Positions 11,239-42,890 of a stretch of 64,000 nucleotides of DNA are shown here, piece by piece (the stretch's first letter is position 1; each line of letters starts with the position of its first letter). The DNA is taken from the NCBI RefSeq assembly GCF_036345915.1, contig NZ_CP107785.1, forward strand, positions 5,952,001-6,016,000. The letters are read 5' to 3'. Position numbers and translations under genes: made by a program. The notes under the pieces were generated by a model. It saw nothing but the letters and a program-made list of their open reading frames with translations. It was not told the DNA's origin and searched no databases. This DNA is from Nocardia sp. NBC_00565 (GTDB lineage: Bacteria > Actinomycetota > Actinomycetes > Mycobacteriales > Mycobacteriaceae).

Positions 11239-11772
11239 CTACTCGGCGGGGACTGAATCAGATTGCACCTGACCACTCGACGGCGTCTCGCCTTCGGACA
11301 ACACAGACGATTCGGACTCCTCCACCTGTTCGGACTGCTTGCGCGCCGCCTTTTTCTGTTGGGCGACAATCGTTCCCACCAGGATGTCGAGTTTGGTGCC
11401 ACTGGGCCAGCCGACGTAGTAGCACAGGAACAATGCGATCTCGTGCAGTTCCGCCTCGGTCAACTCTTTGTTGCGCAGTGCCGCACCGATCTGGATACCC
11501 GCCGTATCCTGCAGCCCCTGGGCGGTGAGAGCGCCCAACAGGATCAGTCGGCGATCGCGGATGCTGAGTCCGGGCCGCGACCAGATCTCGGCGAAGAGAT
11601 GATCGGCCGTCATGGCGAAGTGGTCGCCGGGATAATTCTGGAATTCGGTGCCGTAGACCTCGGCCATCTTGGCCAACCCGCGCTGTCGCACGGCGTCGGC
11701 ACTTCCGTTCGCACGCCCACCCGTCACCTGGCCACCACCTCTCACCGAATCGCTACGCGATGCTTCACTCAT
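11239..11772 (-). CDS. Carboxymuconolactone decarboxylase family protein
   Basis: This protein of 177 residues has the CMD-type helical domain: FAMTADHLFAEIWSRPGLSIRDRRLILLG, then AALRNKELTEAELHEIALFLCYYVGWP. There is no AhpD-type CxxC, so it is not a peroxidase of that subgroup. ATG 11772 was chosen because it overlaps the preceding gene by 8 bases (ATGAGTGA), giving translational coupling; longer forms read through the previous gene. The C-terminus has a charged, low-complexity tail (about residues 140-177). As I recall, gene order aldehyde dehydrogenase, SDR, hydroxyisobutyrate-dehydrogenase-like, CMD resembles the aldA (Rv0768)-Rv0771 region of M. tuberculosis. Its precise reaction is unknown. 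Confidence 0.8.
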   Translation of the reverse strand: MSEASRSDSVRGGGQVTGGRANGSADAVRQRGLAKMAEVYGTEFQNYPGDHFAMTADHLFAEIWSRPGLSIRDRRLILLGALTAQGLQDTAGIQIGAALRNKELTEAELHEIALFLCYYVGWPSGTKLDILVGTIVAQQKKAARKQSEQVEESESSVLSEGETPSSGQVQSDSVPAE

Positions 11773-12637
11773 TGGTTTCCCTTTCGCTTGGCACACCGAG
11801 CCCCGGCCCGAGGCGATCGAGAGCCAATGCCGCCAGCGGCAATTCGACGCCCAGCCGCGCGCCGAGATCCAGGGCGAGGCCGAGGTCCTTCTCGCCGAGG
11901 TCGCGTACATGACTCAGGATCGGCAGCCAGAAGTCCGTCGGCTCGATCGGTGCGGTGCGGTCACGCAGCATGATGGCGCCGGGGCCGCCGGTGACCGCGT
12001 CGGAGTGCCGAACAACCTTGCCCAGCACGGTGATATCCAGATCCGCGGCTTCGGCGAGCCGCTGCGCCTCGGTGGCCGCGGTGAACGCGATGAAATGTAA
12101 GAGGTTGCGCGCCAACTTCATTCGAGTACCCGCACCGACCGGCCCGGCGTGCACCACCAGATCGGCGAAACATTCGAACGGTCCACGGACCTTCTCGAAT
12201 GCGGTGTCGGTGCCGCCGACCATGACCGCGAGCTTGCCGCGTGCCGCACCCTGTGCGCCACCGCTGATCGGGGCGTCCACCAACTCGACCCCCCGCTCGG
12301 CACATTCACCCGCCAGCGCCTCGGCGGTCCGGTCGCTGATCGTGGAGTGCACGGCCACGACGGTTCCGGGCGCGGCGGTCCGCAGTAGGCCATCCGGCCC
12401 GGCGACCACCGCCCGCACCTGCTCGTCATCCAGCACGGTCACCGATATGACGCCGGCCTTCTCGGCGAGCTCCGCCGCGGAATGGGCCGAGGCCGCACCG
12501 GCTTCGGTGAGCGGTTGTACGGCTTCCGCGCGCATATCGCAGACGGTGAGTCCACCGGGCCAGTCCAGCAGTTTCTTGGCCATCGGCGCGCCCATATTTC
12601 CCAAACCGATGAACCCGACCGGCAATTCAGCATTCAT
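11765..12637 (-). CDS. NAD(P)-dependent beta-hydroxyacid dehydrogenase (3-hydroxyisobutyrate dehydrogenase family)
   Basis: The protein has 290 residues with an N-terminal Rossmann domain (VGFIGLGNMGAPMAKKLL, dinucleotide motif GxGxxG at about residues 11-16), the substrate-binding segment DAPISGGAQGAARGKLAVMVGG and the catalytic-lysine region GTRMKLARN (K in the family motif GxxxKxxxN). It should oxidise a 3-hydroxy acid or reduce the semialdehyde. It overlaps both neighbours (ATGA with the SDR gene, ATGAGTGA with the CMD gene), so it is inside a tightly coupled operon. The physiological substrate is not identified; valine catabolism is less likely than a role in the local P450-linked pathway. 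Confidence 0.85.
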   Translation of the reverse strand: MNAELPVGFIGLGNMGAPMAKKLLDWPGGLTVCDMRAEAVQPLTEAGAASAHSAAELAEKAGVISVTVLDDEQVRAVVAGPDGLLRTAAPGTVVAVHSTISDRTAEALAGECAERGVELVDAPISGGAQGAARGKLAVMVGGTDTAFEKVRGPFECFADLVVHAGPVGAGTRMKLARNLLHFIAFTAATEAQRLAEAADLDITVLGKVVRHSDAVTGGPGAIMLRDRTAPIEPTDFWLPILSHVRDLGEKDLGLALDLGARLGVELPLAALALDRLGPGLGVPSERETNE

Positions 12638-13386
12638 GACCGGAACACTTGTCCGCCGTCGACATTGAAGATCTGCCCGGTGACCCAGCTCGCCTCATCC
12701 GAGAGCAGGTACAGGCAGGCACCGACCAGATCCTGCGGCGTGCCCATGCGCTTGAGCGGCAACCGCTTCACCATGTCATCGACGATCACGCTCGGTGTCA
12801 CGGCTTTGGTGGCCTCGGTGTCGATGGGCCCGGGCGCGATGGCGTTGATGCGGATCTCGGAGCCGCCGAGTTCGAAGGCGAGCTGCTGGGTCAGGCCGTT
12901 GATGCCGACCTTGGCCAGCCCGTAGAAGCTGGAGTATGTCCATGCGGCGGTGGAGGATTGGTTGACGATCGATCCGCCGCCCGCCTTGACCATGGGCTGC
13001 CACACCGCGCGGGTCATATTCAGCGCACCGTCCATATTCACGCTCATGAACTTCTTGTAATAGTCCCATGGCACGGTGAGCAGCAGGTTGAGCTTCATCT
13101 CGCCGTAGATGGCGGCGTTGTTCACGAGGTGATCGATCGCGCCGAACTCGCGGACGGTCAATTCGGCCAGCGCGACGGCCGATTCCGGATCGGCGACGTC
13201 GACCTCGCCGAAGATGGCGGTATCGCCCGCGGCGGTGATCTCCGCCGCGACCGCCTTACCGCGCTCGGTATTCAGATCGGCGACAACGACATTGGCCCCC
13301 TCGTGGGCCAATGCCTTGGCATATGCCGCACCGATGCCCTGGGCGGCGCCGGTGACGATGGCGGTCTTTCCCGAAAACCGGGTCAT
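12634..13386 (-). CDS. SDR family oxidoreductase
   Basis: This 250-residue short-chain dehydrogenase has the classical fold: coenzyme motif TGAAQGIG (about residues 11-18), NNAAIYG, the catalytic serine segment IVNQSS, and Y-x-x-x-K as YGLAK, followed by GGSEIRINAIAPGPIDT. ATG 13386 has a GAGGAG ribosome site about 9 bases upstream, so the long in-frame extension is rejected. The gene is 31 bp downstream of the aldehyde dehydrogenase and overlaps the next gene by ATGA. It probably oxidises or reduces a secondary alcohol or ketone intermediate made by the divergent P450 operon. Confidence 0.9.
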   Translation of the reverse strand: MTRFSGKTAIVTGAAQGIGAAYAKALAHEGANVVVADLNTERGKAVAAEITAAGDTAIFGEVDVADPESAVALAELTVREFGAIDHLVNNAAIYGEMKLNLLLTVPWDYYKKFMSVNMDGALNMTRAVWQPMVKAGGGSIVNQSSTAAWTYSSFYGLAKVGINGLTQQLAFELGGSEIRINAIAPGPIDTEATKAVTPSVIVDDMVKRLPLKRMGTPQDLVGACLYLLSDEASWVTGQIFNVDGGQVFRS

Positions 13387-32638: not shown

Positions 32639-33553
32639 ATGATCGGCTCGGCGCTGCTGCGCGATGTCACCCTGCGCGACGGACTGCAGCTGACCGGAAA
32701 GGTGCTGCCGGTCGAGCGCAAGGTGGATATCGTCCGCCGCCTGCTCGCCCTCGGCGTGCCCGCACTGGAGATCGGGTCGATGGCCCGCCCCGATCTGGTC
32801 CCGCCGATGGCCAACACCATGGAACTCATCGCCGCGCTGACTCCCGAAGAGTTGCAGAGCTGTTGGGTCTGGGTGGCCACGCCGCGCCACGTCGAGAAGG
32901 CCGCCGCGGTGGGTGTGCGCAACTTCCAATACTGTTTCTCCGCCTCGGACGCGCACAACAAGGCCAATATCGGCCGCAGCACCGAGGACAGCGTCGCCGC
33001 CATGCCGGCTGCCGTCCGCCTGGCACACGAGGCGGGTGGCGAGATCCAACTCTGCCTGGCCACCAGCTTCACCTGTCCCTTCGACGGACCGGTGGCGCCC
33101 GAGCGCGTCCTCGCCATCGCCAACGACCCGCGCACCGAGGGCGCCGCCGATATCGTCATCGCCGACACCCTCGGCCAGGCGCACCCCACCCAGGTGTTCG
33201 ACCTCATCACGGCCGTCCGCGAACGAACCCCCAACCGCCGCATCGTCTTCCACGGCCACGACACCTGGGGCATGGGCGTCGCCAACACCCTTGCCGCCCT
33301 GCAGGCCGGAGCCACCATGGTCGACGGCTCCCTCGGTGGCCTCGGCGGCTGCCCCTTCGCCCCCGGCGCCAGCGGCAACACCTCCAGCGAAGACATCCTC
33401 TTCGCCGCCCGCCCGGACTGGTTCACGCCGACGACGCTGGCCGCTCTCGTAGAACTCACCGAAGACCTACTCGCCGAACTGAACGAACCCAACCGCTCCC
33501 GCACCGCCGAAGGCGCCCGCTCCAAGGCCGAAGCCTTCGAATGGGTTATCTGA
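32639..33553 (+). CDS. HMG-CoA lyase-like aldolase
   Basis: This TIM-barrel lyase of 304 residues has the HMGL signature: LRDVTLRDGLQ (divalent-metal aspartate and catalytic arginine), HGHDTWGMGVAN (metal-binding histidines) and the catalytic cysteine in GGLGGCPFAPGASGN. It should cleave a 3-hydroxy-3-methylacyl-CoA, or a related 3-hydroxyacyl-CoA, into acetyl-CoA or pyruvate plus an acid. GGGAGG lies directly before ATG 32639. Together with the preceding CoA-transferase it could degrade leucine-, isoprenoid- or itaconate-type acids. It is the last host-like gene before the lower-GC island. Confidence 0.88.
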   Translation: MIGSALLRDVTLRDGLQLTGKVLPVERKVDIVRRLLALGVPALEIGSMARPDLVPPMANTMELIAALTPEELQSCWVWVATPRHVEKAAAVGVRNFQYCFSASDAHNKANIGRSTEDSVAAMPAAVRLAHEAGGEIQLCLATSFTCPFDGPVAPERVLAIANDPRTEGAADIVIADTLGQAHPTQVFDLITAVRERTPNRRIVFHGHDTWGMGVANTLAALQAGATMVDGSLGGLGGCPFAPGASGNTSSEDILFAARPDWFTPTTLAALVELTEDLLAELNEPNRSRTAEGARSKAEAFEWVI

Positions 33554-33855
33554 CCCGTAGCCTGCAATAACGACACGGACGGCGGCACCAGCCTCGGTCA
33601 AGTCGACGCACGGGGCGACATCGGATTCGGTTGCGCGAGGCAGTAATCCGGCGGCATCGGGGAAGCGCAGCGCGCCGAGGCGGTAGAGGCGGGTGGAGTA
33701 TGCCTGCTCGTATCCGGACAATGAACGCTCCGACGAACCATCGTCCTAACAGTGGAGCTGGGTCGCACGGTTCCACTGGAACCGGGGACCGGCTACGCCA
33801 TCCGCGAAAGCGGTCCCTCGGTCGCCTATGCCCTCAACCTTGCGTACCCAGCCGG
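33554..33855. other. Left junction region of the genomic island
   Basis: This 300-bp interval between the lyase gene and the island regulator has no complete gene. It holds a repeat shared with the right flank of the island (33619-33675) and a coding-like fragment on the plus strand (33752-33886, GTGYAIRESGPSVAYALN) that looks like the orphan end of a disrupted gene. I could not identify its parent family. Confidence 0.45.
33619..33675. repeat. Left copy of island-flanking direct repeat
   Basis: This copy begins CATCGGATTCGGTTGCGCGA, which is identical to the first 20 bases of the repeat at 42101-42157. The following 37 bases match with a handful of substitutions and one indel (AATCCGGCGGC is shared). 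The two copies are in the same orientation about 8.5 kb apart and enclose the island. A dispersed intergenic repeat is the alternative. Confidence 0.6.
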
Positions 33856-34596
33856 TCACCGACCAAACTGCAGCACGTCCTCATGACCATTTCGGCGACA
33901 CCAACTCACGATGTATCGAGCATGCAGGCCACACCAGCGATAGACCACCCCGACGGTCATCGGAAGATCTGGATCATGTTCGCCCCGTTGCTCGATGATC
34001 GGGCCTAGATAGGCGCTGGTCACTTTATTCGCGGTGTTGATCCCGACTCGGGCAGCCGTTGCCAGGGTCGAGGTATCGGATGCCCGTCCTGCCGCGATGG
34101 CTCCTGCCAGTCGCCCGGCCGTAGTGCCCCGTCGGTCACCGAAGAACTCGTAAAGTGATCGGGGCCTGAACAAAGGCTTCAGATCATAACGACGCCCCAC
34201 CGCAGCTTCCCTAATCGCATCCAGCAGCGGAGGCACCCCAGAGGATTTCAAATAGATGCCCACTGCCTCGGCTGGACGCAGACGTGCTTCATCTAAGTGA
34301 TCGCGCTCCATACTGTGCCCTTGCGCGGCGAGCAGGACAGCCGCTTGCCGTTCTTCGCATCGAAGTATGTCCAGAACATCAAGACCATCGAACGTAAGCT
34401 CCAGACTGGGGTTGTTCCAGATCAGATCGGCGAGCACGACGTCGAACCGGACTCTGTTGGCAATGTATTGCCGCACAGTCGCCGGATCAACGGCTACCTT
34501 AACCGTCGATCCTGTAAAGGTGGCTGACAGGGTCGGCTCGATCACTGCTCCCAACGGTGAAGCAACCAGAATCCGCATCGGCGATTCTACGGGCAC
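33856..34596 (-). CDS. Receiver-like/HTH transcriptional regulator of the peptide cluster
   Basis: About 246 residues. The N-terminal 130 residues look like a response-regulator receiver fold (MRILVASPLGAV, then VRFDVVLADLIWNNPS where the acidic residue would be the phosphoacceptor, then KSSGVPPLLDAIREAAVG). The C-terminal part (ASDTSTLATAARVGINTANKVTSAYLGPIIEQRG) resembles a helix-turn-helix. I do not recognise the exact family. GTG 34596 has GGAG seven bases upstream. The gene is divergent from the peptide gene across about 125 bp with repeated CCGGGCAA words. Its codon use is less GC-biased than in the host genes. It is probably the pathway-specific regulator; no partner histidine kinase lies nearby. 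Confidence 0.6.
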   Translation of the reverse strand: MPVESPMRILVASPLGAVIEPTLSATFTGSTVKVAVDPATVRQYIANRVRFDVVLADLIWNNPSLELTFDGLDVLDILRCEERQAAVLLAAQGHSMERDHLDEARLRPAEAVGIYLKSSGVPPLLDAIREAAVGRRYDLKPLFRPRSLYEFFGDRRGTTAGRLAGAIAAGRASDTSTLATAARVGINTANKVTSAYLGPIIEQRGEHDPDLPMTVGVVYRWCGLHARYIVSWCRRNGHEDVLQFGR

Positions 34597-34619
34597 AATA
34601 TTGCTCCTAATTCAGCCGA

Positions 34620-34677
34620 CCGGGCAAGATCGAGCCATCTGTGGTTCATGCCGGGCAAACTTGTGCTTGACACCCGG
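34620..34677. promoter_or_regulatory. Divergent promoter with CCGGGCAA repeats
   Basis: CCGGGCAA occurs at 34620-34627 and 34651-34658, 31 bp or about three helical turns apart, and an inverted CCCGG follows at 34673. TTGACA at 34667-34672 matches a -35 box for the peptide gene, but a convincing -10 box is not seen. The repeats are candidate binding sites for the divergent regulator. Confidence 0.4.
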
Positions 34678-34720
34678 AAATCAGGCACACAGCCACACGA
34701 ATTTACCACGGAGACAGCGG

Positions 34721-34861
34721 ATGATGGAGTGGCTGTCGCAAGCTGGTGCACTGCCAGACTTCTACTGCGGCCACACAGGAGGAAACATGAAGAACCGTAA
34801 GAACAAGGTTCAGTCGTACACAACCCTCAGCCCTAAGCGCCCCATAAAGCTGATGTACTAG
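34721..34861 (+). CDS. Small basic RiPP precursor peptide (candidate)
   Basis: The short frame ends in SPKRPIKLMY. Two starts are possible. ATG 34787 gives 24 residues, very basic (MKNRKNKVQ at the start), with a perfect AGGAGG four bases upstream. ATG 34721 gives 46 residues, with GGAG seven bases upstream and a leader-like, more acidic N-terminus containing one cysteine (ALPDFYCGHTGG). Either fits a ribosomal precursor: it sits between the divergent regulator and the YcaO-TfuA genes, has a strong ribosome site and is followed by a hairpin that would raise its transcript above the enzyme genes. No double-glycine protease site is certain, although HTGGNM in the long form is suggestive. The core is probably the C-terminal part. 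Confidence 0.6.
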   Translation: MMEWLSQAGALPDFYCGHTGGNMKNRKNKVQSYTTLSPKRPIKLMY

Positions 34862-34875
34862 GGCACAATTTGTGT

Positions 34876-34907
34876 GGGCGCGAATTGTAAACTGAATTTT
34901 CGCGCCC
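34876..34907 (+). terminator. Hairpin (attenuator) between peptide gene and downstream genes
   Basis: GGGCGCGAA (34876-34884) pairs with TTCGCGCCC (34899-34907), a perfect 9-bp stem with a 14-base loop, 15 bp after the peptide stop. No U-run follows, so partial termination is more likely than complete. This arrangement is common between RiPP precursor and modification genes. Confidence 0.6.
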
Positions 34908-34995
34908 ATGCAATGCCCCGACGACCGCGCCGGTACGGCTATCCCCGAACCGTTACCATAGCAAGCATTGTCGATCTAATGAGGGTGAATCACGA

Positions 34996-36309
34996 GTGGC
35001 AAGTAAAATTCTGCCGTCGCAAGCTCAACACAGAATACCCCGCTGGTCAACGTACCGGCCATACTTGGACTTCGGCCCGGCCGTCAGTAATGCTCCATTC
35101 CACGTGGTCGGATTAGACTGGGCCATCGATGATGCTATCAACGGTACTAATCATCCTGAAATCCAGGCCTCTGTCAATGAATCATTCCGCGATGAGCTAA
35201 CGATATCGCCGTTGACCGCGTACTCCGTTGATCACCCGAAGGACGTGCCGAGAGATCTTATCAGTAATAGAGGGCGAGCGTTCATCGACGTCCTCGAGTC
35301 CCACGGGCGCGATATCTACCCGGATGGTTTGCGGGCGTGTTGGGCGTTAAGTAAGATGGGATACCATCATTTAGTTCTAGAAATTGTACCTGACGATGTC
35401 TCACGCGACCTATCGTCTGCGTCATCATCGGTGGATATTGAATTTGCATATCTGCGCACCTGGGCGATGTTCAGGTGCTGGCTCGATGATCCGAGGATAC
35501 CGTACCGGGTCCAGTCATTCGAGGATATCGCCCTACACGCACCGGTGTCACGACCCAAATTGCATGCCGCCTACCAGGTAGTCATGCAGACCGCGAAGTT
35601 CAGCGGCGACCGCGCGAAATGCGGCGAGTGGCAAGAGCGGCACGCGAAGATTCTTTCAGACATCAGCCTAGATCTCGAGCCGCCAGAAATAGCGCGTTTA
35701 ACGAGTCGGTTCCATCGTGTCGGCGGCTTTCTCCCCCAAATGGACGCCGATGCCGATGGCGTCGAGCGTGAGATGACCCTCGCCGAGCGCGCAATCCGGG
35801 ACGCACCGGCTCCGGATGAATTCGAAGAAACCGCCCGACTCGAAATGCTATTTCCCTGCATAGAAAGTCGAATGCGCGAGTCGTTATGGCGTGGCGATCT
35901 CGACAGCGCAACGAGTCGGGCCGAGGAGTACATCAACATCAGACCAACCGATCCGAAGGGCTGGTCATACCGAGCCGATATCCTCGTGGAACAGGCGCAC
36001 TTCAATGCCGCAGCCGCGAACTTCGCAATGGCCGCTGCACTCGCGCCGCCAGGACGAAGCATTGCGCTGTACATGCGTGCGCAATGTCTACAACAGGTCG
36101 GCGATGATGAAGGGGCACTTCTTTCATTGCTAGACTGCATAGAGGCTGATCCCCTCGCAATCGGCGCAGTCGCCGCAACAGCCGATCTTTCTACTCGAAT
36201 GGGACGCAAGGAGATAAGCACCTGGTGCTCGACCCGATTGGAAGAGTTGGTCGCAATGTCCAGGGAAGACCATATTCCGTCGATACCCGAGCCGTACCAG
36301 AAATACTGA
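34996..36309 (+). CDS. Unrecognised island protein with TPR-like C-terminus
   Basis: The protein has 437 residues, low-GC codon use and no recognised domain. It is soluble. The N-terminal half (FHVVGLDWAIDDAING, RDIYPDGLRACWALSKMGYHHLVLEIVPDDV) matches nothing I know. The last 160 residues are helical with repeats of tetratricopeptide type (GDLDSATSRAEEYINIRPTDPKGWSYRADILVEQAHFNAAAANFAMAAALAP and the next turn QQVGDDEGALLSLLDCIEADP). I chose GTG 34996, which has GAGGGTG 8 bases upstream. The YcaO gene begins 27 bp after the stop. A peptide- or partner-binding scaffold for the YcaO-TfuA enzyme pair is a reasonable inference. Confidence 0.75.
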   Translation: MASKILPSQAQHRIPRWSTYRPYLDFGPAVSNAPFHVVGLDWAIDDAINGTNHPEIQASVNESFRDELTISPLTAYSVDHPKDVPRDLISNRGRAFIDVLESHGRDIYPDGLRACWALSKMGYHHLVLEIVPDDVSRDLSSASSSVDIEFAYLRTWAMFRCWLDDPRIPYRVQSFEDIALHAPVSRPKLHAAYQVVMQTAKFSGDRAKCGEWQERHAKILSDISLDLEPPEIARLTSRFHRVGGFLPQMDADADGVEREMTLAERAIRDAPAPDEFEETARLEMLFPCIESRMRESLWRGDLDSATSRAEEYINIRPTDPKGWSYRADILVEQAHFNAAAANFAMAAALAPPGRSIALYMRAQCLQQVGDDEGALLSLLDCIEADPLAIGAVAATADLSTRMGRKEISTWCSTRLEELVAMSREDHIPSIPEPYQKY

Positions 36310-36336
36310 TCCTGATCAACGGAGTTGGAAACAAGC

Positions 36337-37599
36337 ATGACGATGCCAATAGCAGGCCATTCGTGGCCGCCGGACTGGTGGGAGAATGTTGAGGACGCCG
36401 ATGGCGCCGGGCATGCACTTTCCACCGAGGCGGCCTATCATCTGGCCGAACGCGCCAGGAAAGCAGTGCCAGTCACGCGCGTTCACCGTTTGACAGATTT
36501 GGGATCAGTCAAAATTCCGGTATGGGCCGCGGTCACGCCGTGCACGAAAGACCTCACGGTTCACTTGGGCAAAGGTAGCAGCGACACACTAGCCGAGTTG
36601 AGCGCTATCTTCGAAGGAATTGAGCGATTCAGCGCCGAGAACGTACCTGCACACCAGATCGTGAGCACCGATGAGGACATCGACCTCCGCCGAGAAGTCA
36701 TACGCAGATTGAGACTGCCTCATATAGAAGCCGAGCTGCTGTCCGACCAGTGGGTCCATGCATGGGATCTGATTCGACACGAGCACACCAGCCTGCCCGC
36801 TAAGACGGTACTGTCTCCAGTTGTCGTAGATGGCGTCTATAGAGCCGACACCACCGGGTTGGCTTCCGGAGGTCACCACATTGAGGCTGTGCTACATGGC
36901 ATATACGAATTGATCGAACGGGATGCCGTCGCAGCATTGGAATTCGACCAACAGTTCGGCAATCGTAGCCGACGATATCGCCCGCAGATACTCCACCTGC
37001 AAGAGCACCCGGAGCTCGCATCAATTATCGATCGCATCACGTACGCTGGATTTTCGATATCCGCATTCGGACTAGATGCAGTCGGTCGAACGGCTACGTA
37101 TTGCGTCTACCTAATAGATCGCATCGGCGCCAACTCGATCGGACATCCGTCGGTGTTCATGGGTGCCGGGTCCGCCAAATCGGGTTCTCGTGCCCTGACG
37201 CGCGCAGTATGTGAAGCAGTCCAATCATACGCGGGCTTTACTCTCGGCGCCCGGGAAACATTCGAAGGGTGGTCTGAGGATATCATGGATGACGACGAGA
37301 AAATTGAATCTCGTCAGACATATCTGCTCAACCTATTAGATGCAACAAGTGCGCCGCCGGAGAGATCCGCAGCGTTGAGCGGACCCGAGTACGACTCCCT
37401 CCTGGAGGAATTGGAGAACTTGATCGACAGATTGCGGGACGATGGTGCAGAAGACATATTCATCGCAGATCTCACAAGACCGGACCTACATGTACCGGTC
37501 ATTCGCGCAGTAATTCCCTGCCTTGCCCGCCCTCATGGCGCAACATTGTTTCCGACAAGCTTGAGACTCTACGCGCGGATGCTGGATTACCATGTCTGA
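36337..37599 (+). CDS. YcaO-domain enzyme (predicted peptide thioamidation)
   Basis: This YcaO protein has about 420 residues. The ATP-binding signatures are present: SxxExxER as SAIFEGIERFSAE, a second acidic helix in HGIYELIERDAVAALEF, and the E-x-x-Q type motif in RAVCEAVQSY. YcaO enzymes phosphorylate peptide backbone amides; with a TfuA partner they install thioamides instead of azolines, as shown for thiovarsolin-type peptides and archaeal McrA. The tfuA-like gene overlaps its end by 8 bases (ATGTCTGA). There is no E1-like or dehydrogenase gene for azol(in)e formation. I chose ATG 36337 over an upstream TTG at 36325 because GGAA/GGAG precedes it at workable distance. Confidence 0.88.
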   Translation: MTMPIAGHSWPPDWWENVEDADGAGHALSTEAAYHLAERARKAVPVTRVHRLTDLGSVKIPVWAAVTPCTKDLTVHLGKGSSDTLAELSAIFEGIERFSAENVPAHQIVSTDEDIDLRREVIRRLRLPHIEAELLSDQWVHAWDLIRHEHTSLPAKTVLSPVVVDGVYRADTTGLASGGHHIEAVLHGIYELIERDAVAALEFDQQFGNRSRRYRPQILHLQEHPELASIIDRITYAGFSISAFGLDAVGRTATYCVYLIDRIGANSIGHPSVFMGAGSAKSGSRALTRAVCEAVQSYAGFTLGARETFEGWSEDIMDDDEKIESRQTYLLNLLDATSAPPERSAALSGPEYDSLLEELENLIDRLRDDGAEDIFIADLTRPDLHVPVIRAVIPCLARPHGATLFPTSLRLYARMLDYHV

Positions 37600-38812
37600 C
37601 ATAATATTTGTGGGATCATCGCTCGCGCAAGAGGAAGCGAAACAGCTGCATCCAAATGCGCAGATAATGGATCCCGTTCGACGCGGGGAACTCAACGGGT
37701 TAGTACTGGGCGATCCAGACACGCCATTTCGCATCTTAGTGGTCGACGGCATCTTCAGCGGTGCATCCGCACCGTCTCCCAGCGAATTCGCGGACCTGAG
37801 CTCCCGCCAGCGCGTTTCGCTATATGGGTGCTCCAGCATGGGAGCCGTCCGCGCTGTTGAGTGTGAGCCGGCGGGCATGCGTGGCACCGGAACCGTTTTC
37901 CATGGATTTCGATCGGGAATTCTTCGTGACGACACTGAGGTGGCGGTAGCCGTAGATCCCGACAGTGGGTTCAGGTCCGTCACCGTAGCTCTCGTAGACA
38001 TCAGGTGGTATATCGCCAAACGACGGCGCTCTGCCGGCTTATCCGCGAAGCAGTGCAAAATGATTACGGAAGAAGCCGAACGCATCCACTTTCTTGAGCG
38101 TTCAAAGTCCGCAATCCGAGCCATGGCGAGCGCAGCTGAGCTCGACGTCCGTTTCTGGGATCCGCTATTCCACTCAGGAGGCGTCAAGCGCCTCGACGCT
38201 ATTCGGGCTATTCGAAGAATGGCTGCGACAACTACTGCGTACGAATCAACAATCGCACACTCGAAGACAATTCCGGGACCGCGACCACTTCGCTACATCG
38301 ACCCGATTCGATCAGACCCGACAACGCAAACGGTCTCTTTCCTAGATTGGTTCATCGGCTCAGGAAAGTATCAACACTGGTTGTGGCCGATTGTCATCGC
38401 CAATGCAGGTCTCGTCAGCAACGATATGAAACTGCCGAACGATACAGAGAGCTCGAGGGCCTTCGCCTCCAGAGTAATGCGGGGTCTTATTGCACTGGAA
38501 GCCGATACATTGGAGCCACTTATCATCGCCGAACTCGAGTATATGGGGGACTATGCCGCTTGCCGGTTCGAATGGATCGCTGAGCTGAATCTTGCCGCCG
38601 AGTGTGGATCGCCCTCATCCGAGGATCTGGCTTTTGCCAAGGAAGAGATCGCGATCGCGCACGGATTCGATTGTTGGGCCGAGATTCGCGCTGCTGACAC
38701 AGATGGACTCATATATGATTTTTTGCCCACATCGACTGTCGAGCAGGCAGTCCGTCTCCGTGGGGCGGCCCGCACTGCGGCGCGGGCCTTGAGTCCACGA
38801 ATTCTGCGATGA
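37592..38812 (+). CDS. tfuA: TfuA-like protein, YcaO partner
   Basis: The protein has 406 residues. The first 130 residues carry the TfuA core: IFVGSSLAQEEA, then VLGDPDTPFRILVVDGIFS, PSPSEFADL, VSLYGCSSMGAVRAVECEPAGMRGTGTVFHGFRSGIL. The glycine-rich GCSSMGAVRA segment is the family hallmark. In characterised systems TfuA assists YcaO in thioamide formation, probably by recruiting or hydrolysing a sulfur donor. The C-terminal 270 residues are an extension without recognised domain, longer than the simplest TfuA proteins, and may recognise the peptide or the TPR-like protein. The 8-base overlap with the YcaO gene ensures co-translation. Confidence 0.88.
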   Translation: MSDIIFVGSSLAQEEAKQLHPNAQIMDPVRRGELNGLVLGDPDTPFRILVVDGIFSGASAPSPSEFADLSSRQRVSLYGCSSMGAVRAVECEPAGMRGTGTVFHGFRSGILRDDTEVAVAVDPDSGFRSVTVALVDIRWYIAKRRRSAGLSAKQCKMITEEAERIHFLERSKSAIRAMASAAELDVRFWDPLFHSGGVKRLDAIRAIRRMAATTTAYESTIAHSKTIPGPRPLRYIDPIRSDPTTQTVSFLDWFIGSGKYQHWLWPIVIANAGLVSNDMKLPNDTESSRAFASRVMRGLIALEADTLEPLIIAELEYMGDYAACRFEWIAELNLAAECGSPSSEDLAFAKEEIAIAHGFDCWAEIRAADTDGLIYDFLPTSTVEQAVRLRGAARTAARALSPRILR

Positions 38813-38822
38813 TCCACTGAGA

Positions 38823-38848
38823 GAGGAGCAAAAGGGCGATCGCTCCTC
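38823..38848. terminator. Hairpin between convergent tfuA and metG genes
   Basis: GAGGAGC (38823-38829) pairs with GCTCCTC (38842-38848) around a 12-base loop, in the 57-bp gap between convergent genes. Confidence 0.55.
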
Positions 38849-38869
38849 CCCCAACGCTCGGGACCACAG

Positions 38870-40525
38870 CTAGCGAGCGGCGATGGATTCGCCGTCCAGC
38901 TTGACGAACAGTGGCTTGATCGGTTGCAACTCAATATCGGTGACAAGAGCAGGCCGTTCCCATGCCAAAGCCCCTGCGATTCCCAGTGCGTCGAGAACCT
39001 TTCTGCTCGAGGCCGGCAGAAATGGCGACAGGCCGAGTGCAAGGCCGGTCAACGCGCACAGAACGTTGGACACTACCTGCGCAGCCGCTTGCGCATCATG
39101 CTTCCGCAACGTCCATGGCGCAGCATCGCTCAGGTAAGCATTGGTGTCCTGAACTGCGGTAAGCATTATCCGCAGCGCACGTCGGATCTCAACAGACTCG
39201 AATGCTTTGGCGGATTCGACGAGTGCGGAATCGACTACCGCCATCAAGTTCGAATCCTCGGCTGAGGACAGTTGCGATGGATTCGGCGTCCGGCCGTCGA
39301 GCTGCCCGACTGCAAGCGCGAATGTGCGACTGACGAGATTGCCCCAACCGTTCGCGAGCTCGGTATTCACTCGTTCGACGAGCAGATCTTCGGTCAGTTC
39401 AGTGTCATCCGCTTCGGGCAAAAGAGTTGCCAAGCCGTACCGCAGAGCGTCGGTGCCGAAGGCCTTCGCATAGTCGACTGCAGGTTTGCCAAGGCCAGCC
39501 GATTTGGATGCCTTCTTGCCGCCGAGGAGAACATAATTGTTGGCCGGCACATTGGTTGGCAAGTTCAGACCTTGATGGGCAATAAGCATAGCGGGCCAGA
39601 TCACTGTGTGGAACGGAATATTGTCCTTGCCCACAAAATAATACGACGCGGTATCGGGACTCACCCACCAGTCGTGCCAGTCGAGCCCGTTCTTATCAGC
39701 GTACTCGATGGTAGCCGACAAGTACCCCATCACAGCCTCGAACCAAACATACACCCGCTTGTTCGCATTCAGGCCCAGCCATTCGGGAACAGGAACACCC
39801 CAGTCGAGGTCCCGGGATATCGCGCGGTCATGGAGTCCACTGCCAACAAATCCTTCCGTCCATTTCTTGACGTGATTTCTCCATCCGATCTTTGGTCGCA
39901 CCCATTCGAGTAATGCGTTCTCAATATTCGATAGGCGAAAGAACGCGTGCTGAGATGTACGTAGAACTGGCTCGCTGCCAGATATCTTGCTGATTGGACT
40001 TATCAGATCGGTTGGATCAAGAGTTCGTCCACAATTCTCGCATTGATCGCCGCGCGCGTCCTGGTACTTACAATGCGGACACTGACCTTCGACGTATCGG
40101 TCAGGCAAGAAACGGTGAGCGATCGGATCGAAATACTGCTCCGTTTCCTTCTGGTAGATATAGCCATTCTTATCGAGAGTCGCGATGAACGATTGAACAA
40201 CATTACGATGATTCTCGGTTGCGGTGGATGTGAAGATATCGAATGAAATATCGAGAACATTCCACAGCTCATCGAACTTTGCGGAGTATCGATCAACGAT
40301 CGACTGCGGTTCGAGCCCCTCCGCTTCGGCGCGGACGAGAATTGGAGTGCCGTGGGCATCGCTCCCGGAAACCATAAGTACATCGCAACCCTTGAGTCGC
40401 ATGTATCTGGCGAATATATCCGCTGGCAAATAAGCCCCCGCCACATGGCCAAGGTGTAATTCCCCGTTGGCGTAAGGCCATGCGACACATACGAGAACCC
40501 GCTGTTTGACTTCACCTTCACTCAA
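38870..40525 (-). CDS. metG: Methionyl-tRNA synthetase, zinc-knuckle type (island copy)
   Basis: This class I synthetase has 551 residues. HLGH (residues 24-27) is the HIGH motif and KASKS (338-342) replaces the usual KMSKS. Two zinc-ligand pairs, CPHC (149-152) and CENC (162-165), place it with the knuckle-bearing MetRS form rather than the knuckle-free form I recall for M. tuberculosis MetRS. Codon use is close to 50% GC, far from the host. It lies in the island with YcaO-TfuA and downstream of a second SAM synthetase gene. The likely role is an inhibitor-resistant duplicate giving self-protection; supplying Met-tRNA for biosynthesis is the alternative. The housekeeping copy is not in this window. 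Confidence 0.92.
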   Translation of the reverse strand: MSEGEVKQRVLVCVAWPYANGELHLGHVAGAYLPADIFARYMRLKGCDVLMVSGSDAHGTPILVRAEAEGLEPQSIVDRYSAKFDELWNVLDISFDIFTSTATENHRNVVQSFIATLDKNGYIYQKETEQYFDPIAHRFLPDRYVEGQCPHCKYQDARGDQCENCGRTLDPTDLISPISKISGSEPVLRTSQHAFFRLSNIENALLEWVRPKIGWRNHVKKWTEGFVGSGLHDRAISRDLDWGVPVPEWLGLNANKRVYVWFEAVMGYLSATIEYADKNGLDWHDWWVSPDTASYYFVGKDNIPFHTVIWPAMLIAHQGLNLPTNVPANNYVLLGGKKASKSAGLGKPAVDYAKAFGTDALRYGLATLLPEADDTELTEDLLVERVNTELANGWGNLVSRTFALAVGQLDGRTPNPSQLSSAEDSNLMAVVDSALVESAKAFESVEIRRALRIMLTAVQDTNAYLSDAAPWTLRKHDAQAAAQVVSNVLCALTGLALGLSPFLPASSRKVLDALGIAGALAWERPALVTDIELQPIKPLFVKLDGESIAAR

Positions 40526-40600
40526 TGATCGTTCTCCTGAACTTTCCGGTAAGGATGGATCATGGTCTGGCCGACTGGCCTGTCAAGTTCGCGGACCCGT

Positions 40601-41770
40601 CTACAGTCCGAGAGATGTTGCCATTTCGGCTGCGTGCGGCGTCTGTTCCCAGGTAAAATCAGGATCTTGCCGCCCAAAGTGCCCGTACGATGCGGTTTTG
40701 TAGTATATCGGCCTCCGCAGGTCGAGATCGCGAACGATCGCAGCTGGCCGAAGATCAAATATATCGTCAACTACTTCCGAAATGAGTTTTCGATCAACTC
40801 GCTCGGTACCAAAGGTGTCGATCATGAGCGATACCGGCCTTGCGACACCGATAGCATAGGAAACTTGCACTTCACATTTCGTGGCAGCACCAGCGGCAAC
40901 GATATGTTTCGCTACCCATCGCATAGCATACGCCGCCGACCGGTCTACTTTCGACGGATCCTTTCCTGAGAATGCTCCGCCACCGTGCCGACCGACACCT
41001 CCGTACGTATCCACGATTATTTTCCGACCAGTGAGGCCCGCGTCGGCATACGGTCCACCGAGGACGAATTTTCCAGTAGGGTTGAGCAGAAACGTGACAT
41101 CAGGGTCCCGTAGATCCTCAGGCAGAGACGGCATCACCGCTTTGTCGAGCAGCGCCTGCCGAAGATCAGGGTCGACATCGATATCCGGATCATGCTGGAC
41201 GGATATGACGACTGTCGAAATAGCGGTTGGCCGACCTGCGACATATTCGACTGAAACCATAGCCTTCGAATCGGGGCGGAGCCCGGCGACAACCGCGTTC
41301 CTGCGTGCCTCGGACGTCGCCTTGGTGAGCCTGTGGGCAATCGCGATCGGCGTTGGCATCAGCTCAGGCGTTTCGTCACAAGCGAATCCGTACATCATCC
41401 CTTGATCGCCCGCGCCCTGTTCATCGAAACTTTCTCCGTCAACTCCTTGGGCTATGTCAGGCGACTGCTGGACCAGGGCCTGCAATATTTGTAGATTTCC
41501 TGGCGCGCACGCGAAGGAATCATTGAAGGCTTCGGGCGAATACTCGATTCTTGCGAGCGTGTCGGCAACGATTTGCCCCACATCCACCCGAGCGGTTGTC
41601 GTCAACTCACCTGCCACCAGCACAAGATTCGATTTCAGTGCGGTTTCGACCGCCACCCGTGCGGCCGGGTCGGTACGGAGACAAGCGTCAAGGACGCCAT
41701 CCGAAATTTGATCGGCAATCTTGTCTGGATGACCTTCGCTGACCGATTCACTGCTTATGTAGTGCGTCAT
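40601..41770 (-). CDS. metK: S-adenosylmethionine synthetase (island copy)
   Basis: The enzyme has 389 residues, the normal MetK length. GHPDK (residues 13-17, ATP site), GAGDQGMMYGFACDET and the phosphate-binding loop GGGAFSGKDPSKVDRSAAY are intact, so it should be active: methionine plus ATP to SAM, phosphate and pyrophosphate. ATG 41770 is the conserved family start (MTHYISSESVSEGHPDK). It precedes metG by 75 bp on the same strand and probably forms an operon with it. No methyltransferase is in the island to need extra SAM, which favours a resistance role for this duplicate. Composition is lower in GC than the host. I see no SAM riboswitch upstream. Confidence 0.92.
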   Translation of the reverse strand: MTHYISSESVSEGHPDKIADQISDGVLDACLRTDPAARVAVETALKSNLVLVAGELTTTARVDVGQIVADTLARIEYSPEAFNDSFACAPGNLQILQALVQQSPDIAQGVDGESFDEQGAGDQGMMYGFACDETPELMPTPIAIAHRLTKATSEARRNAVVAGLRPDSKAMVSVEYVAGRPTAISTVVISVQHDPDIDVDPDLRQALLDKAVMPSLPEDLRDPDVTFLLNPTGKFVLGGPYADAGLTGRKIIVDTYGGVGRHGGGAFSGKDPSKVDRSAAYAMRWVAKHIVAAGAATKCEVQVSYAIGVARPVSLMIDTFGTERVDRKLISEVVDDIFDLRPAAIVRDLDLRRPIYYKTASYGHFGRQDPDFTWEQTPHAAEMATSLGL

Positions 41771-42100
41771 GTAGTGGTTCTTCCCGCCGACTGTGAAACA
41801 CCGGCCAATATTTCGCACCTGCCAGAACGCTGATTTTGACCCAGCAACGGTAGTAGCTCAAAGCCTGTCTGTCTCGGACGCTGCCAGTATGCCGGGCATT
41901 GCTCGCCGATACAGCTAGCAGGATCGCACGCCGGACTAGCATATTGGTGTGATCAGCTCAGTATTCAGCTGTGGCGGCAAGATGTTGCCTACTGGGCGGC
42001 AGTGGATAGGCGACCAGGCGGCTTCCCCCTTCCCGGTCGGCCGTCCAGCGGCGGCTTAAAGTTCGAGTTCCGCACAGCGAAGTCTCCTCAGACAGCGCGG
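41771..42100. other. Upstream region of metK and right island edge
   Basis: The first 180 bp are lower in GC and probably hold the metK promoter; I recognise neither a SAM riboswitch nor a clear operator. The remainder returns to host-like composition. No gene is supported. Confidence 0.4.
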
Positions 42101-42157
42101 CATCGGATTCGGTTGCGCGACGCGGCAATCCGGCGGCGTCGGGGGAAGCACGGCGCA
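42101..42157. repeat. Right copy of island-flanking direct repeat
   Basis: It matches the copy at 33619-33675 in the same orientation, beginning with the identical 20-mer CATCGGATTCGGTTGCGCGA. It directly abuts the IS110-type transposase remnant, so it may once have been the end or target of that element. Confidence 0.6.
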
Positions 42158-42470
42158 CCAAGTGGGAAAAGGCGAACACCACGCCGTCGGTCTCGACACC
42201 ACCGGGAAACGACTGTTCGACAAGGCATTACCGAACGACGAGTCCCGGCTACGAGCGGTGTTCGACCAGCTTGCCGCCCGTGGCCCGCTGCTGATCGTGG
42301 TCGACCAGCCCAACACCATCGGTGCGCTGCCGGTCACTGTCGCCCGCGCCTGCGGCCACGACGTCGCCTACCTGCCCGGCCTGTCGATGTGCCGCATCGC
42401 CGACCGCTATCCGGGCCAAGCCAAGACCGATTGTGGGCATGATATCCGCGGCGTTCTTCCGGCGGCCTGA
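42150..42470 (+). pseudogene. IS110-family transposase remnant
   Basis: About 105 codons match the N-terminal DEDD (RuvC-like) domain of IS110 transposases: VGKGEHHAVGLDTTGKRLFDK, ALPNDESRLRAVFDQLAARG, VVDQPNTIGALPVTVAR, DVAYLPGLSMCRIADRYPGQAKTD. Homology stops at AKTD, where the next conserved aspartate segment should be, and a stop follows 13 codons later. The C-terminal serine-containing domain is missing and no usable start precedes the fragment. It is a dead relic marking past recombination at the right edge of the island. Confidence 0.85.
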
Positions 42471-42890
42471 CCCGAAGACCGATCGGCCGCGTGCCTTCCA
42501 GGCGACAAGTCGGCTGTCGGGAGAATGCCGTTCGGTGTCCTCGATCGGGCGCGCTGTGGCCTGATAGGGGCTTGAACTTCCCACCACAGTCCTGCCCGCG
42601 CCGCCTCGGAGTCCCGCACGACAGCACTACCGTCGACGCGAGCGCGGCGATCACGAGCAATCATACCCGTTCACGGCGACCGGACCGCGGAAGACACACC
42701 GCGCCAACCGAATCCGGGTCGGCCACCACCGTCGCTAGGTCCGCGGCCTATTGCGAGGACTGCAAGCCCCGTGTAACCCGAGGGATCCCGGCGACGACAC
42801 CAAATCGGCCCGGCCACAGCACCTGCTGCCTATGGTGAGGGATCACAGTCCCCAGGACACCCGAGAGGTCACCGCGCCAGACCCGAACGA
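42471..42890. other. Gene-free scar next to the IS110 remnant
   Basis: No frame here shows convincing coding character or family likeness. The stretch lies between the transposase relic and a truncated acetyltransferase and is best explained as degraded sequence. Confidence 0.4.

Follow-up and report, generated by a model that had tools for sequence, protein, structure and literature searches.

The 64,000-nt window analysed here (positions 5,952,001–6,016,000 of Nocardia sp. NBC_00565, whose genome is a single contig of 9.71 Mb) contains a low-GC unit of ~8.4 kb, hereafter the island, that encodes a transcriptional regulator, a short peptide, a tetratricopeptide repeat (TPR) protein, YcaO, TfuA, a methionyl-tRNA synthetase (MetRS) and an S-adenosylmethionine (SAM) synthetase (MetK). 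Taken alone, the view that this is a mobile biosynthetic unit resembling those of ribosomally synthesized and post-translationally modified peptides (RiPPs) is very probably correct. It is possible, though short of probable, that the whole chain also holds, in which the unit makes a thioamidated, Met-containing mimic of methionine, with the duplicate MetRS and MetK shielding the producer from it.

The island stands out in composition, with a GC content of 53–57% over 34–42 kb of the window compared to ~67% around it, and a GC content at third codon positions (GC3) of 0.57–0.60 in its six long genes compared to 0.84–0.90 in the five flanking genes measured. A 53-bp direct repeat lies at both edges, and its 20-nt core, allowing up to two mismatches, occurs at two sites in the 9.71 Mb, both of which are the unit edges. 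Immediately beyond the right copy sits an open reading frame (ORF) resembling an IS110-type transposase. Because the island GC3 is uniform and the bounding repeat is unique in the genome, the genes look like one acquired unit that includes metG and metK, rather than chance neighbours. An earlier reading of the DNA letters, the original prediction, had drawn a lower-GC island at 33856..41770; its coordinates were correct, the GC drop and GC3 agree with it, and the YcaO, TfuA, MetRS, SAM synthetase and regulator that it named are all recognized by Pfam or NCBIfam models. Megablast against plasmids returned no copy of the island DNA.

Between the TPR gene and the regulator gene lies an ORF of 24 codons, divergent from the regulator gene, that starts four bases past a perfect AGGAGG Shine-Dalgarno (SD) sequence and encodes MKNRKNKVQSYTTLSPKRPIKLMY, with methionine as the penultimate residue and RPIKLMY as the C-terminal segment. 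The tiny peptide gene that had been predicted without a position can now be set here, and this candidate, recognized as a conserved ORF, is the likely precursor of the island. When the surroundings of TPR homologues were scanned for short ORFs preceded by an SD, comparable peptides appeared in Leisingera (L022), MKKKKIKKFETLDSKSPLSVQF, and in a metagenome-assembled genome (MAG) of Myxococcaceae (L010), MKKKKSIKTFATLATTTPLTVCF. A Streptomyces plasmid (L097) encodes MKRNTNNLFQTFNPKRPLTTLV, identical in the near-copy L098, while MEIKLERFRSIRKDRPARTSI was spotted by eye 5′ of the TPR gene in L111, from a genome that is probably Streptomyces (the genus of G172). In all five loci with clear TPR homologues (the window, L010, L022, L097 with L098, and L111), which come from three phyla, the peptide ORF precedes the TPR ORF by 9–192 bp. 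The peptides have N-terminal halves rich in lysine and arginine and no secretion signal by inspection, and the other four are 21–23 amino acids (aa) long.

All five peptides fit the motif [FY]x[TS][LFI]xxxxP[LIA]xxx[YFVI], terminating at the C-terminus. As the exact motif was fitted to these peptides, the 5/5 is by construction, and the control is the empty 4.27-Mb background together with the constant position relative to the C-terminus: the fitted motif had no match, with or without an SD, on both strands of 4,265,120 bases of other loci. A looser pattern missed the L111 peptide, and the residue after the proline was then widened to L, I or A. In another search, a looser pattern gave 31 rows, mostly distant from TPR genes, and eight of these rows, located elsewhere, have an SD-like stretch (L019, L030, L049, L068). 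In the regions around four weaker TPR matches and one weak Amycolatopsis match (L112–L116), neither the looser pattern with an SD nor the exact motif returned a peptide.

Two other forms of the island peptide were considered and rejected. The first candidate for the tiny peptide, a 50-aa ORF at 34648–34800, has no Pfam or NCBIfam match and is overlapped at its end by the 24-aa ORF, which is preferred because of its perfect SD and its look-alikes at other loci. A 46-aa form of the same frame, with a weaker SD, was discarded in view of the shorter length of the other four peptides given above.

The protein encoded downstream of the peptide has weak TPR matches only, below the Pfam cut-off. An AlphaFold2 model built on nine sequences is all-helical (mean predicted local distance difference test score, pLDDT, 89.5; predicted TM-score, pTM, 0.87), and the best Foldseek matches are TPR superhelices, with modest TM-scores of 0.2–0.5 by query. 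These matches include Tom71 with a C-terminal fragment of Hsp82 and LGN with Frmpd4. The fixed distance between the peptide motif and the free C-terminus would fit a TPR protein that reads a C-terminus. Sequence relatives of the TPR protein (26–48% over the alignment) are few: six besides itself in a protein search that scored 7,997 candidates, two among the 80 YcaO loci described below and two on plasmids. In 392 genomes of the genus of G172, five TPR matches were found at E 1e-12, and G904 is the only one that BLAST-matches the island protein. A search of 396 genomes of the phylum at E 1e-15 found the TPR protein in its own genome only, and a search of 120 genomes of the family of Leisingera at E 1e-20 found the seed only.

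The peptide, TPR, YcaO and TfuA genes are consecutive in both the window and L022. The L010 pair of peptide and TPR genes is encoded on the strand opposite to YcaO-TfuA, ~2 kb away, with an ORF resembling an amidohydrolase by inspection and a methyltransferase between the two pairs. YcaO-TfuA is thus present in three of the five peptide-TPR loci, while no YcaO was found in the annotated 25 kb of L097/L098, or in L111 by tblastn. Further enzymes in L010 include an AurF-like oxygenase and a KAS III-like enzyme. The ~8 kb Leisingera cluster (L022, 4390–12381) contains a tryptophan-halogenase-like gene and a gene for a 703-aa protein without a Pfam family, together with the peptide, TPR, YcaO and TfuA genes. 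The pair without YcaO lies on large linear Streptomyces plasmids (L097 and L098, both at 11701–13257), and in L111 (9207–10643) it adjoins a methyltransferase and a xanthine-dehydrogenase-like set. The peptide-TPR pair seems to be a module with varying enzyme partners. The unknown TPR-like protein of the original prediction thus has a TPR fold and is no incidental member, as it forms with the peptide the most widespread part of the system.

The adjacent YcaO and TfuA genes overlap by eight nucleotides. Among the matches listed, one protein, P0001, is nearly identical to the island YcaO (98%) and all further relatives have at most 35% identity; an alignment (A1) took in 13 relatives. The window YcaO stands on a very long branch in a tree of 42 YcaO rows, 3.0 compared to a median of 0.44. 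The three TPR-associated YcaOs are not shown as one clade, with two changes on the tree and one change in 0% of 200 bootstrap trees. A search of 150 species of the genus at E 1e-40 found the island YcaO in one. The survey of gene neighbourhoods took in the best 80 of the 284 YcaO relatives found in genome contigs, with flanks of at most 10 kb that were shorter where the contig was short, and TfuA was detected in 71 of these 80 loci.

A second metG and a second metK are found elsewhere in the genome, with 32% and 58% identity to the island enzymes, respectively. The duplication of both enzymes that had been predicted is therefore real, and the case in which the island carries the only copies is excluded. 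The island duplicates diverge from the host copies with their sequence motifs retained. The best Protein Data Bank matches of the host MetRS (L002:1072–2628) are 2x1l (820 bits), 5xet (818), 5xgq and 6ax8 (818–820), which we take to be mycobacterial type 1 MetRS, while those of the island MetRS are 1rqg (370 bits), presumably the Pyrococcus enzyme, the cytoplasmic enzyme 5gl7 (310) and 6spp (304), with 5xet at 205. The island MetRS has two Cys-x2-Cys knuckle pairs that are absent from the host MetRS, valine rather than the host leucine at the last position of YVWxxA[VL], and the class I motifs HLGH and KASKS in the form usual for the subfamily. By these sequence features, the host MetRS is type 1 and the island MetRS is type 2. 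According to a study that compares its MetRS2 with 1QQT and 5GL7 as further MetRS2, inhibitors of MetRS1 act only to a limited extent on bacteria that have MetRS2, among them Gram-positives (PMC8165550).

Among the best 120 of 7,999 homologues of the island MetRS, P0026 is near-identical (99%) and the other 119 have at most 58% identity, with Acidimicrobiia, Actinomycetota/Actinobacteria, Frankia and Nitriliruptorales as the named organisms, and 22 of 396 genomes of the phylum, its own included, have a MetRS match at E 1e-150. Of these 119 closest homologues listed, just four (P0027–P0030), all from metagenomes or MAGs and 57–58% identical, share the combination of C13, L63, L333 and L334 with the island MetRS. 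The island MetK differs from 30 actinobacterial MetKs at 20 near-invariant sites, including G64N. Longer MetRS (frames of 590–654 aa) with 35–37% identity to the island MetRS occur in 8 of 147 other species of the genus (L089–L096). The island MetRS also matches 193 Escherichia plasmid records at E 1e-5, and among the matches listed, four E. coli rows and one Shigella row, from plasmids of ~107–120 kb, are annotated metG (H18–H22).

The features of the island and its edges are collected in Table 1. The metK start is most likely the one given there, with the longest ORF extending to 41818. No riboswitch was matched by Rfam in 33300–42600 up to E 0.5, and promoter and terminator scans gave results near chance.

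Table 1. Features of the island and its boundaries, in window positions.
Feature	Position	Strand	Evidence and remarks
Left repeat copy, 53 bp	33610..33662	+	87% identity to 42092–42144; core unique in the genome to both edges
MSMEG_1198-family transcriptional regulator, 246 aa	33856..34596	-	NCBIfam NF052426, 372 bits (cut-off 300); GC3 0.595
Shine-Dalgarno AGGAGG, perfect	34777..34782	+	Sequence; 4 nt 5′ of ATG
Candidate precursor peptide, 24 aa, MKNRKNKVQSYTTLSPKRPIKLMY	34787..34861	+	Like-spaced peptides 5′ of TPR genes elsewhere
TPR superhelix protein, 437 aa, presumed peptide-binding partner	34996..36309	+	AlphaFold2, Foldseek, sequence relatives
YcaO	36325..37599	+	PF02624, 1e-52; alternative start ATG 36337 possible
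TfuA, 406 aa	37592..38812	+	PF07812, 5e-27; 8-nt overlap with ycaO
Second methionyl-tRNA synthetase, type 2 by sequence	38870..40525	-	PF09334, 9e-143; convergent to tfuA, 57 nt between ends
Second S-adenosylmethionine synthetase	40601..41770	-	S-AdoMet synthetase N/M/C domains, best 1e-67; metG follows after 75 nt
Right repeat copy, 53 bp	42092..42144	+	Pairs with 33610–33662
102-aa ORF, partial IS110-family transposase domain	42162..42470	+	PF01548, 2.7e-21, profile positions 6–95 of 155

We propose the following mechanism. The 24-aa peptide would be translated from the conserved candidate ORF, and the TPR superhelix would bind it through the motif at its fixed distance from the free C-terminus and present it to YcaO. 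YcaO, with TfuA delivering the sulfur, would convert a backbone amide in RPIKLMY to a thioamide, and proteolysis would then free a Met-containing thioamide that acts as a mimic of methionine or methionyl-adenylate. Such a mimic may block MetRS and MetK, both of which activate methionine with ATP. The island metK-metG pair would then stand in with enzymes that tolerate the mimic better, namely a divergent MetK and, in a host whose own MetRS is type 1, a MetRS of type 2. Binding of the peptide by the TPR protein is suggested by fold and co-conservation, and thioamidation by what is known of the YcaO-TfuA family, while the Met-mimic product, the inhibition of MetRS and MetK, and the insensitivity of the island enzymes are steps that we infer. 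The Met mimic is favoured because the penultimate residue of the peptide is methionine, because the two cargo enzymes share only methionine and ATP, and because the island MetRS is of the type that escapes some type 1 inhibitors. A more novel reading is rather unlikely: a new RiPP-like class would be defined by a peptide of 21–24 aa with a basic leader, a dedicated TPR carrier and modification at a fixed position close to the free C-terminus, and in this island the thioamidated Met mimic would hit MetRS and MetK at once, the acquired type 2 MetRS and the second MetK giving dual self-resistance.

Several observations weigh against this mechanism. Neither metG nor metK was found in any of the 80 YcaO loci surveyed, so that the linkage of MetRS and MetK to YcaO rests on one species; the original prediction had itself counted the absence of these genes from related YcaO-TfuA neighbourhoods against it, and that is in part what was found. 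The near-identical P0001 and P0026, both with a longest contig of 8,824 bases, suggest at least one further strain in which the YcaO and MetRS genes are linked. The penultimate residue is Q, C, L or S in the other peptides, and no matching synthetase was noticed beside them, in the course of an inspection that included no systematic synthetase search. None of the six long island ORFs is recognized by Pfam as a transporter or a protease. For MetRS, leucine at the YVWxxA[VL] site is conserved in MetRS1 only and MetRS2 has proline, according to the MetRS2 study cited above (PMC8165550), and the island valine matches neither. That source also describes the methionine pocket as highly conserved across MetRS types, with known type-selective inhibitors additionally filling an auxiliary pocket (PMC8165550); a plain methionine mimic need not spare a type 2 enzyme for this reason. 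Neither the island MetRS nor the island MetK was found to carry a pocket change that is known to confer resistance, and none of their unusual residues can be linked to it. The original idea of self-resistance is thus kept in part, with duplicates that are real, divergent and motif-intact in one bounded unit with YcaO-TfuA, and is set back by the 80 related loci; likewise, the idea of a thioamidated peptide processed to a Met mimic has gained a conserved peptide gene with a penultimate methionine and has the same survey against it.

The conserved methionine pocket slightly lowers the standing of the whole chain and of the new RiPP-like class, and raises that of an alternative, in which the peptide, TPR protein, YcaO and TfuA make a thioamidated peptide with another target, while metK serves as SAM supply or is a hitch-hiker, with metG carried in beside it on the mobile unit. 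This alternative draws on the survey of the 80 loci and on two further observations that also count against self-resistance: Streptomyces plasmids often carry homologues of metK, accounting for 75 of the 167 plasmid records that match, which makes MetK alone weak evidence, and metK-metG forms a separate pair that is convergent to the peptide operon and lies outside it. It is nevertheless rather unlikely. No SAM-using enzyme is recognized by Pfam among the six long ORFs, a supply role leaves MetRS unexplained, and two cargo enzymes that share just methionine and ATP would be a coincidence.

The island could instead serve in phage defence or abortive infection, with an infection-induced peptide that poisons methionine metabolism and spare MetRS and MetK that limit self-damage. 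The regulator belongs to a family named after MSMEG_1198, an activator of a BREX-like island affecting phage TM4 according to excerpts of a 2026 review (PMC13355554). MSMEG_1198-family regulators are found in 18 of 118 species of the genus, its own included, at E 1e-15, and an ORF of 1,252–1,264 aa lies near the regulator in 8 of 13 regions (L194, L195, L196, L197, L198, L200, L201 and L204). One such large ORF was tested and is an nSTAND1-WD40 protein with a ThiF protein beside it (L194). The same regions contain an ORF of 478–580 aa that resembles a PaaK-type adenylating enzyme by inspection of four translations, with no Pfam match in the one tested, and the regulator, the large ORF and the PaaK-like ORF are a recurrent module in the genus. 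Against a defence role, PADLOC matched none of the six island proteins at E 0.1, no relative of the TPR protein was found on viral contigs, and tblastn found no such regulator in L010, L022 or L111 (L097 was outside this search), which makes this explanation distinctly unlikely.

A short conserved peptide beside a TPR superhelix also recalls RRNPP quorum sensing, where the peptide would be a signal, the TPR protein its receptor, and YcaO-TfuA would tune the signal. RRNPP receptors combine TPRs with a helix-turn-helix or other effector domain, whereas the island protein has no such domain, with weak TPR matches as its only Pfam hits, none of them DNA-binding, and an all-helical TPR model. The pair does occur without YcaO in L097/L098 by annotation, where regulators adjoin it, and in L111 by tblastn, but it accompanies YcaO-TfuA in three loci, and the peptides have Lys/Arg-rich N-terminal halves and, by inspection, no secretion signal. 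We regard this as very unlikely. That YcaO-TfuA thioamidates a protein in the manner of McrA, with the small ORF not a substrate, is extremely unlikely, as the best NCBIfam matches are indeed the McrA-glycine thioamidation YcaO and TfuA models but score far below their cut-offs (154.7 of 365 bits and 114.5 of 235.2 bits), and the conserved peptide ORF is left unexplained.

Compared to known systems, the proposed thioamide route is closest to the YcaO-TfuA thioamidated RiPPs (thioviridamide and other thioamitides, thiovarsolins), which likewise have ycaO next to tfuA and a small gene for the precursor. The island differs from these in its 24-aa candidate precursor, of a sequence family that we have not seen named, and in its TPR partner, MetRS and MetK. 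Thioamitide clusters of the thioviridamide type also carry genes that form lanthionine or AviMeCys, while Pfam finds none of these among the six long ORFs and the 50-aa ORF of the island. Thioamidated RiPPs of this kind have been surveyed as a class, and in the main text of both surveys the terms TPR, tetratricopeptide and tRNA are missing (PMC6511847, PMC8120280). The literature searched contained no paper that combines YcaO, TfuA and methionyl-tRNA synthetase, and yielded a single review on MetRS self-resistance in gene clusters; a search on methioninamide and methionyl-tRNA synthetase found nothing, so no support is cited for inhibition by a methionine amide.

Self-resistance through a duplicate synthetase is established for IleRS with mupirocin, LeuRS with agrocin 84 and SerRS with albomycin. 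In the island, too, a likely biosynthetic unit is accompanied by a second, divergent synthetase that belongs to a different subtype, but the island carries two different methionine enzymes at once. In Trojan-horse peptides of the microcin C type, the C-terminal part of a very short peptide becomes a mimic of an aminoacyl-adenylate, as would be the case for the island peptide, but no ThiF-type enzyme is recognized in the island by Pfam, and YcaO-TfuA is found instead. The pairing of a peptide with a TPR protein is shared with the Pearlin clusters (ammosamide, bha), which, in the excerpts of the two papers, use a scaffold peptide with the TPR proteins AmmC2 and the TPR-flavin enzyme BhaC1 (PMC12424672, PMC11002830). 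In contrast to the Pearlins, Pfam recognizes neither a LanB-like peptide aminoacyl-tRNA ligase (PEARL) among the six long island ORFs nor a flavin domain in their TPR member.

We know of no other natural product that hits methionine activation in both translation and SAM synthesis. If the proposed mechanism is true, the island product would be the first, and its self-resistance pair would be readable from the cluster, naming the targets of the product. The peptide-TPR module, through its motif and exact C-terminal spacing, provides a sequence handle for finding clusters with short precursors. Both ideas, the dual-target product and the peptide-TPR module, are open to direct test in laboratory hosts, using small genes.

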